Of a stretch of DNA of 64,000 nt, positions 42,471-45,260 are shown piece after piece. Both the position numbers and the translations under genes were made by a program. The stretch is taken from contig CH672415.1 of assembly GCA_000153145.1 (NCBI GenBank), forward strand, positions 1,364,750-1,428,749, in the 5' to 3' direction. This DNA comes from a marine actinobacterium PHSC20C1 (GTDB taxonomy: Bacteria > Actinomycetota > Actinomycetes > Actinomycetales > Microbacteriaceae). The notes beneath the pieces were generated by a model, which worked only from the letters and a program-made list of their open reading frames with translations, searched no databases and was not told the DNA's origin. Within the stretch, counting starts at the first letter, position 1; every line of letters starts with the position of its first letter.

Positions 42471-42911
42471 ATGCGCAGCCTTAACGAAAACAAGACCGCC
42501 GTTGCCCTCTTCGCTGGCGTCACCCTCGTGGGCGCACTCTCCGCGTGCTCCTCCCCCAGCACAGGCGCCGACGTCTCGGCTGCTGACGCCGGTGCCCCAA
42601 CCACCAACGGCGACTACACCGACGGCACGTACACCGAGACGGGTAACTACCAATCGCCCAACGGCACCGAGCAAGTGGATGTCACCCTCACCCTCGAGAG
42701 CAACATCATCACCGAAGTGAACGTCGTCGGATTCGGCGAAAGCCCCAACTCGATGCAATTTCAGGGCGAATTCATCGACGGAATCGCGGCCGAAGTCGTG
42801 GGCAAAAATATCGATGAGCTCTCTGTCGACAAAGTTGCCGGCTCATCCCTGACAAGCGGCGGATTCAACAAGGCCGTCGAAGCGATTAAGGCAGACGCCC
42901 TCGCCGAGTAA
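42471..42911 (+). CDS. FMN-binding domain lipoprotein
   Basis: A 146-residue exported protein. The signal peptide ends in lipobox LSAC (Cys26). A Ser/Ala/Thr linker leads to one FMN_bind domain (~48-146): YTDGTYTETGNYQSPNGTEQ then TEVNVVGFGESPNSMQFQGE. The segment VAGSSLTSGG (122-131) aligns with the flavinylation site SGATLTS of NqrC/RnfG-like proteins, making Ser126 the likely FMN-ester residue. The ATG at 42471 has GGAG 5 nt upstream; the longer frame lacks a signal peptide. It is followed at once by the ApbE frame and the NqrB-like gene, forming an electron-transfer module outside the membrane. Confidence 0.88.
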   Translation: MRSLNENKTAVALFAGVTLVGALSACSSPSTGADVSAADAGAPTTNGDYTDGTYTETGNYQSPNGTEQVDVTLTLESNIITEVNVVGFGESPNSMQFQGEFIDGIAAEVVGKNIDELSVDKVAGSSLTSGGFNKAVEAIKADALAE

Positions 42912-43755
42912 ACAGTTTGAAGCTATAGGCGCGCCCTGGCAGATAGATACGACACAGCCGCTCAGCGCTGAAGCCGCGGGCGCGATAGCGGACCGTATCG
43001 AAACTTTCGACCGCACCTATTCGCGATTTCGCGAGGATTCCCTCGTCGCGACGATCGCCCGCACACCGGGAACATACCGTTTTCCCCCGGATGCTCCGCC
43101 GATGTTTGAGCTCTACCAACGGCTCTACGACGCCACCGCCGGGGCACTGAGCCCGCTCGTAGGTCGCGCGCTCGAAGAACTTGGCTATGACCGCACCTAT
43201 TCCCTGCAACCAAACAGCAACCGCACTCGAGTGCCGGAATGGCGCGAAGCCATCAGTTGGAACGGCACAGAACTCACAACCTTTACCCCTGCAATCCTCG
43301 ACGTTGGGGCCGCCGGAAAGGGTTACCTCGTTGATCTCGTAGCCGAGGTGCTCGCCGAATACGGCGTCGACGTCGCAACAATTGACGCGAGTGGAGACAT
43401 CTTGCACCTCGGCGAAGACGAACTGCGGGTTGCTTTAGAGCATCCACTCGACACGAGCAAAGCCATAGGCGTGGTGTCAGTGCGCAATCAGGCGATTTGC
43501 GCCTCGGCACCTAACCGGCGCGCATGGGCGGGACTTCACCACATTCTGGATGCCCGCACCGGACTCCCCACAGACCGCATCATCGCCACGTGGGCGATCG
43601 CACCGACTGCACTCGAAGCTGATGGGCTTGCGACCGCCCTCTTCTTCGCCGAACCGGCCGCTCTGGCCACCGAATTCGAGTTCGAGTGGGTGCGCATGTT
43701 TTCGACAGGCCGAGTAGAGTACTCGCCAGATATCAACGGAGAGCTGTTCCTATGA
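42910..43755 (+). CDS. apbE: ApbE-like FAD:protein FMN transferase, start codon missing at the conserved N-terminus
   Basis: The frame is open from 42853 to 43755. Homology starts right after the upstream stop: KQFEAIGAPWQIDT, then IETFDRTYSRFREDSL, AILDVGAAGKGYLVDLVAEV, IDASGDILHLG and HHILDARTGLPTDR, then APTALEADGLATALFFAEP. These are the ApbE blocks that bind FAD and magnesium. The first ATG in frame is 43102, which would remove ~64 conserved residues; no ATG, GTG, TTG or CTG lies before it. The bases GAGTAAACAG would become GAGTGAAACAG, a normal GTGA overlap, with one more G. So it may be a recent deletion, a sequencing error, a rare start, or a frameshift fusion. No signal peptide is seen. 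Confidence 0.75.
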   Translation, partial: KQFEAIGAPWQIDTTQPLSAEAAGAIADRIETFDRTYSRFREDSLVATIARTPGTYRFPPDAPPMFELYQRLYDATAGALSPLVGRALEELGYDRTYSLQPNSNRTRVPEWREAISWNGTELTTFTPAILDVGAAGKGYLVDLVAEVLAEYGVDVATIDASGDILHLGEDELRVALEHPLDTSKAIGVVSVRNQAICASAPNRRAWAGLHHILDARTGLPTDRIIATWAIAPTALEADGLATALFFAEPAALATEFEFEWVRMFSTGRVEYSPDINGELFL

Positions 43756-45260
43756 AGCGTTGGCTAGATCGCACTCTTGGCGCGATCGCAATGTACAAGC
43801 TGGTGTGGATCTCCCTGATGATTGTGGCGGTCGCGGCAATCGCACTCTCATTCTTCGATCTCGTTTCGCCTGATCCCTTTGCGCTCCTCGCGAGCCTTCC
43901 TGTTGCGGTTGGCTTCAGCTACCTAGCAAGCATGATTGGTGCCCGGATCGTTCGGCAGCGCGCCCACCTTGAGTCCTCACTCATCACCGGGTTGCTCGTG
44001 TTTTTCATCATGGCCCCCAGCCTTGAACTCATGGGGCTGCTGGGTATCGCACTCGCTTCAACGATCGCTGGGGCATCCAAGTTTCTGATCGCATTCCGCG
44101 GCCGACATATCTTCAACCCTGCGGCACTCGGCGCCTACGTTTTCATCTTCGCCCCCCTAGGATTCCCGACCTGGTGGGTCGGAACTCCGCTGCTGCAGCC
44201 GCTCATCGTTATCGCCGCATTTCTGATCCTCTACCGCACCCGCAGACTCGACCTCGGACTCGTCTTCATCGTCGTCGCCTCGAGCATCCGAATCGCTCTA
44301 TCGCTGGCCAGCGGCGGCACATTCACTGATGCCCTGAGCTTCACTTTCGCGTCATCACAACTGATCTTTTTCGTCGGTTTTATGCTGAGCGAACCTCTCA
44401 CGTTGCCACCCCGCCGCTGGCAACGGCTCAGCATCGCCGCCGTTGTTGCCGTGCTGTTTGCTGTCCCCTTCTCGATAGGCCCCCTCTACAGCGACCCGTT
44501 GCTCGCCCTTCTCATCGGCAACCTTGTAGCGTTTTTCTTCACCCAAAGACGAACCATTCGGATGTCATTGGTCGAGAAAACGGAACTCGCTCCCGGAACT
44601 TGGGAACTCACTTTTGCCCCGCACCGCTCCATCTCATTCCGTGCGGGTCAATACACCGAGCTTTCCATCCCGCACGCCAAAGCGGACTTCCGCGGTGCTC
44701 GCCGCTACTTCACTATTTCTTCAGCGCCGGATGCTGGCGGCATGATCGCGATTACCTTCACCGAGGCCGCGAGGTCGAGCAGCTTCAAATCAGCGCTACT
44801 GGCGCTGCCCCGTGGTTCGCAAGTGAACGCCACCGGAATTTGGGGCGACTTTGTGTTGCCCCGAGACACCTCCGCACCACTGCTCTTGGTCGCAGGGGGC
44901 ATTGGCGTTACTCCGTTCGCTAGCCAGATTGCGCACGCACACCGCGAGGCAGAGGGTCGTGACATCGTGGTGGTGTACGCGTCTTCTCAGATTGGACAAC
45001 TGCCATTCGCCGACTTGCTTGCACAGGCCGGGGTTCGCGTGGTTGTCTTCGGGCCACAGTCGAGCACCCCACTCCCCGCGGGCTGGGAGCATGGCAGCGA
45101 GGGCCGCGTAACGGGGGCAACGCTCTCCAGACACATCCCCGATCTGAGCGACCGCCGTGTCTACCTTTCGGGCCCGCCAGCACTCGTCAACGACCTCAAG
45201 TCGGCGCTGCGCAAGTACGGTGCTCGGCGCATCCACACCGATTATTTTTCGGGTTACTAG
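43752..45260 (+). CDS. NqrB/RnfD-like membrane domain fused to ferredoxin-NADP reductase-like domain
   Basis: A 502-residue fusion. Residues ~1-265 hold 7-9 helices with the family marks RGRHIFNPAALGAYVF and FMLSEPLTLPPRR, as in NqrB/RnfD. Residues ~270-502 are an FNR module: FRAGQYTELSIPH and RRYFTISSAPDAGG (FAD site), VAGGIGVTPFASQ (NAD(P) site) and a C-terminal YFSGY. No 2Fe-2S domain. It would take electrons from cytoplasmic NAD(P)H through FAD and pass them across the membrane to the FMN lipoprotein. The ATG overlaps the apbE stop (ATGA), so the three genes form one operon. Confidence 0.9.
   Translation: MKRWLDRTLGAIAMYKLVWISLMIVAVAAIALSFFDLVSPDPFALLASLPVAVGFSYLASMIGARIVRQRAHLESSLITGLLVFFIMAPSLELMGLLGIALASTIAGASKFLIAFRGRHIFNPAALGAYVFIFAPLGFPTWWVGTPLLQPLIVIAAFLILYRTRRLDLGLVFIVVASSIRIALSLASGGTFTDALSFTFASSQLIFFVGFMLSEPLTLPPRRWQRLSIAAVVAVLFAVPFSIGPLYSDPLLALLIGNLVAFFFTQRRTIRMSLVEKTELAPGTWELTFAPHRSISFRAGQYTELSIPHAKADFRGARRYFTISSAPDAGGMIAITFTEAARSSSFKSALLALPRGSQVNATGIWGDFVLPRDTSAPLLLVAGGIGVTPFASQIAHAHREAEGRDIVVVYASSQIGQLPFADLLAQAGVRVVVFGPQSSTPLPAGWEHGSEGRVTGATLSRHIPDLSDRRVYLSGPPALVNDLKSALRKYGARRIHTDYFSGY

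Follow-up and report, generated by a model that had tools for sequence, protein, structure and literature searches.

Genes and codons at the lipoprotein-apbE junction

In the window, by which we mean the whole 64,000-nucleotide stretch of DNA that was analysed, a gene for an FMN_bind lipoprotein, apbE and a gene for a membrane fusion protein follow each other on the forward strand. The features used below are:

42471..42911, + strand: FMN_bind lipoprotein gene, ATG start, 146 aa
42895..42897, + strand: ACG at the site of the in-frame ATG of relatives, read as GAC GCC in the lipoprotein frame (Asp-Ala of the IKADA tail)
42895..43755, + strand: apbE (FAD:protein FMN transferase), 286 codons counted from the ACG
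42909..42911, + strand: TAA, stop of the lipoprotein gene
43102..43104, + strand: first in-frame ATG of apbE
43752..45260, + strand: fusion of an NqrB/RnfD-like membrane domain and an NAD-binding domain, with an ATGA overlap with apbE

The lipoprotein matches FMN_bind in Pfam (E 1.6e-05, 25.9 bits), has the lipobox LSAC by eye and is presumed to be the flavinylation substrate. The apbE product matches the ApbE profile (PF02424) at E 3.2e-38 and 132 bits against a cut-off of 25.6, covering positions 2–250 of 266, as well as solved ApbE structures (best 4xdt, E 1.5e-12). No other ApbE match at E ≤ 0.001 turned up in the genome, which is a single contig with a completeness rating of 99.99%. The product of the third gene contains NAD_binding_1 (PF00175; E 4.8e-07, above cut-off) and 9 hydrophobic segments in a simple hydropathy scan, and matches NQR2_RnfD_RnfE (PF03116) at E 9.6e-05 and 22.3 bits, below the curated cut-off of 27.7.

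According to the available portion of an eLife 2021 paper (PMC8238504), 127 NQR/RNF-like flavinylation clusters have been described, mainly in Actinobacteria and the candidate phyla radiation. The window operon resembles them in its FMN_bind protein, its ApbE and its apparent NqrB/RnfD-like membrane domain fused to PF00175, with the FMN_bind protein adjoining apbE as it does there, but differs in that PF03116 stays below cut-off. Loss of a start codon, or an overlapping start, is absent from what that portion says on such clusters.

The ApbE frame lies +1 to the lipoprotein frame and is open from 42853 (after TGA at 42850–42852) to TGA at 43753–43755, and the junction at 42906–42915 reads GAGTAAACAG. 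Direct reading found no ATG, GTG, TTG or CTG in this frame between 42853 and 43101, which bears out the original prediction on this point. The Pfam match begins at residue 7 of a translation starting at 42910, and the structure-aligned stretch begins at query residue 36, i.e. before 43102. A start at 43102 would cost 62 residues from a conserved Phe on, including an S-x-F-R-x-D-S stretch, and is unlikely because N-terminal residues that look constrained would be lost.

Several in-frame codons differ from ATG by one base, namely AGG (42871, 42889), AAG (42880), ACG (42895, 42949, 43051), ATA (42925, 42943, 42985) and ATC (42997, 43054). The ATA at 42925 was rejected as a start, since it sits 3' of the conserved Phe; the Phe codon varies synonymously in the clade (TTC/TTT), so initiation should be at or before it. 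Counted from the ACG at 42895, apbE shares 17 bases with the lipoprotein gene and reaches the Phe after just 7 codons, a stretch that looks too short for a signal peptide.

The junction in the genus and the family

ApbE matches were found in all 27 genomes of the genus search. There are 25 orthologues (54–100% identity), whose loci were compared, and G008 and G017 have distant ApbE proteins only (E 2.4e-11 and 1.3e-4). In the ten nearest orthologues (L002–L011; 78–83% identity), the lipoprotein stop lies at the same position as in the window (one codon earlier in L010) and apbE is in the +1 register throughout. Seven of the ten (L002–L005, L007–L009), with a near-identical junction, carry an in-frame ATG aligned to 42895–42897. 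This ATG precedes the conserved Phe by 7 codons and position 42910 by 15 bases and is placed inside the GCN-GAT-GCN of the lipoprotein tail IKADA; from it, apbE would overlap the lipoprotein stop and the five codons before that stop. In the window the overlapping Asp is encoded by GAC and not GAT, which makes the apbE-frame codon ACG, and this C for T is silent in the lipoprotein.

The original prediction held that one base change had removed the start of apbE from a former GTGA stop/start overlap. A one-base difference in the overlap does exist, but it concerns the ATG at 42895–42897 and not a GTG completed by a G at 42910, and a GTGA overlap occurs in none of the clade loci (11 with the window). 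The proposed sequencing error at 42910 fared no better, as the additional G is present in none of the ten close relatives when the junction is aligned. An error of another kind, a miscalled base at 42896 with ATG as the true codon, would agree with the single substitution between the window and its ATG relatives. However, the genome is a single, nearly complete contig, and the same ACG recurs in other assemblies, both in three relatives of the same sub-clade (L006, L010, L011) and in outgroup loci, which makes such an error extremely improbable.

Five codons further upstream there is an ATG in L010 and a CTG in L011; L006 has no common start upstream and a TAG directly before its ACG. The apbE match of L011 (Salinibacterium sp. 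PAMC 21357, also L035) falls into two frames near the C-terminus (query 2–239 and 228–281); either the reading frame is interrupted there or the assembly is wrong.

The family search covered 398 genomes, an even sample of a larger group, and 153 of the 398 matched at E ≤ 1e-40, 10 of them within the genus. From the 143 matches outside the genus, 102 (mostly better-scoring) were taken and joined with the 25 genus loci, giving 127 loci, of which 125 were scored. A relative of the lipoprotein lies upstream of apbE in 124 of these 125, and none was detected for L061. The candidate start in tight-junction loci is mostly about 7 codons before the conserved Phe.

Close junctions were defined by the +1 register, a gap up to 25 and the Asp motif (n = 61). 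In these, the Asp site is GAT, which gives ATG, in 39 loci and GAC, which gives ACG, in 22. At 39 of 61 sites the codon is thus GAT, whereas elsewhere in these genes GAT makes up 101 of 615 Asp codons (Fisher p 1e-14). CTG is the next codon in 13 of 22 loci after ACG against 0 of 39 after ATG (p 8e-8). Both p values overstate the enrichment because related species were counted as independent. Outside the genus alone, GAT makes up 28 of 36 codons at the site and 50 of 345 elsewhere, in a count that includes wider gaps. The Asp site looks like a selected start, with ATG in place or often CTG one codon on. Taken together, the common starts in the overlaps of relatives are ATG at −7 and −12 and CTG at −6, −8 and −12.

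The loci with ACG followed directly by CTG (GAC-GCT-G) are L012–L014, L017, L020, L021, L023, L037, L038 and L040, and likewise L015, L016 and L018 with 5 extra codons, 13 in all; the CTG is probably the working start in them. Among the remaining 1154 Ala codons of the 61 compared genes, only 74 are GCT. Generally, 19 of the 22 close-junction loci with ACG have CTG, GTG, TTG or ATG within 16 codons, so these loci need not use the ACG. In 3 of the 125 loci, namely the window (L001), L006 and L047, the open frame 5' of the Phe contains no common start at all. All three carry ACG at the site, and L047 comes from another genus. In 6 further loci, with wider junctions, a common start is present only beyond 16 codons.

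The codon before Asp ends in A (GCA, GTA or ACA) in the window (42891–42897), L006, L010, L011 and L047, which are five of the six ACG loci in this comparison without an adjoining CTG, the exception being L089 with GCC. Shared ancestry may account for this A, or it may be part of the initiation context; the excess was dropped as evidence, being too confounded by ancestry.

The original prediction also proposed a +1 frameshift at GAG UAA; as a programmed shift it would give an exported lipoprotein-ApbE fusion that carries the signal-less ApbE outside. The register of the two genes fits this, as all 45 junctions with a stop-to-Phe gap of at most 7 bases are in +1 (wider gaps show all three registers), and +1 is kept even where a GTG follows the stop, in L020 and L021 (tight) and L015 (longer gap). 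But the same register is accounted for by overlapping ATG and CTG starts, and L022, L024 and L025, genus loci which also have GTG after the stop, are out of it; with three such loci in +1 and three out, this comparison alone decides nothing on frameshifting. The codon before the stop is not constant in the 11 clade loci (GAG, CAG, AAC, GCC), and RNA folding is ordinary, with z of 0.47 across the junction and −0.37 downstream. The +1 site of RF2, as the available part of PMC5009743 describes it, is a conserved CUU_U (rarely UUU_U) before the stop with an internal SD; at GAG UAA A nothing similar was seen by eye. On these grounds a frameshift fusion is highly improbable. ApbE proteins without a signal peptide exist (PMC12052999, in the part available), and the candidate starts of tight-junction relatives mostly give no room for one either, so how the enzyme meets an exported lipoprotein is a question not special to the window.

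Two long open frames that might have been fusions of ApbE with neighbours were left unused. The extra upstream part of L101 seems to be open by chance. L102 belongs to a genome with a completeness rating of 86%, and by eye its join to the membrane protein appears shifted in frame.

Constraint on the first codons and history of the ACG

In order to compare constraint along apbE, dN/dS was calculated for the first 64 codons from the Phe (62 of them before 43102) and for the rest of the gene. The values for the first part and the rest are 0.10 and 0.14 for the window with L011, 0.11 and 0.10 with L006, 0.13 and 0.09 with L010, and 0.17 and 0.08 with L009, and for L004 the first part gave no value owing to saturated synonymous sites. 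Among four pairs that exclude the window, three also have the higher value in the first part. These low values suggest that the first 64 codons are translated, and as synonymous sites are near saturation, the constraint that followed the loss of the start cannot be dated.

The gene could also be dying, its translation lost or residual after the ATG disappeared and the protein dispensable in this organism. With no common start, and with conserved residues removed by a start at 43102, such decay is conceivable, but the frame is intact over 286 codons at dN/dS of about 0.08–0.17 in the window pairs, the genome has no other ApbE, and L006 and L047 share the start-less state. We regard decay as distinctly unlikely.

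In the apbE gene tree (41 rows; deep forks poorly supported), L004 (ATG) and L011 (ACG) form a group with the window, L006 and L010 (both ACG) are its neighbours, and the six members of the sister group all have ATG. Counted by hand, an ancestral ACG with regain of ATG in L004 takes 2 changes and separate losses take 3, which slightly favours an ACG older than the window species, a matter that a gene tree and a flipping synonymous site cannot settle. The original prediction's recent mutation is accordingly doubtful, given this count and the ACG common to three sub-clade relatives. L047 is placed away from the window, beside L048 and L050 of another genus, and on that placement two or more origins of the start-less state are most likely.

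Candidate initiation at the ACG

Weak, termination-coupled initiation of apbE at the ACG of 42895–42897 is the most likely reading, and we consider it probable. The start codon of apbE would be buried in the last lipoprotein codons, and ribosomes that terminate the lipoprotein a few codons on would initiate apbE by translational coupling. Where many relatives have ATG, initiation in the window would still occur at the ACG, with low efficiency. A low level of ApbE could suffice, because ApbE is a catalyst and would be needed in smaller amounts than its substrate. What was observed is the codon and where it lies, the ATG that relatives align to it, the codon bias in the family and the coding constraint; from these we infer use of the ACG, coupling and a low level.

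For the ACG start we count the lack of a second ApbE match (E ≤ 0.001) in the genome, the ATG at the site in 7 of 10 relatives, and the three start-less loci that all carry ACG, one of them in another genus. Against it we count the first-part dN/dS above that of the rest in two of the four window pairs (L010, L009), and ACG is said to have been a very poor start in E. coli in the 2017 work of Hecht et al.

Initiation might also use another near-cognate codon in the overlap (AGG at 42889 or AAG at 42880, both in frame), or be reinitiation without a defined codon, and the common starts of relatives do lie at several positions of the overlap. However, in L006 the TAG directly before the ACG leaves nothing further upstream usable, and the ACG alone occupies the position of the relatives' ATG, so that such initiation is unlikely.

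Translationally coupled overlapping genes are known with ATGA, GTGA and longer overlaps, in which the start of the second gene precedes the stop of the first. The apbE start at the ACG would be like these in lying before the lipoprotein stop, and unlike the usual cases in its 17 bases, in being embedded in a conserved Asp-Ala and in having ACG at the start position. Bacterial non-AUG initiation includes the AUU of infC and CUG, and ACG is very weak in reporters; the ACG of the window resembles the known non-AUG starts as a near-cognate codon, one base from AUG. We know of no natural bacterial ACG start. None is named in the literature titles and abstract openings that were searched, and ACG finds no mention in the available part of PMC11497404.

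A wider claim is that ACG is a natural and evolutionarily retained start of apbE in at least two lineages of the family, tolerated or favoured since a coupled catalyst needs trace expression only; we hold this tentatively, at slightly less than even chances. A codon normally too weak as a start may be in use at apbE. Since gene-calling programs usually recognise no starts but ATG, GTG and TTG, a working gene of this kind may end up shortened, misplaced or labelled a pseudogene. If the ACG is used, it would be a rare natural case in which the start codon of one gene and a codon within its neighbour compete for the same base, and the relatives show a range at this site, from ATG through ACG with CTG to ACG alone.
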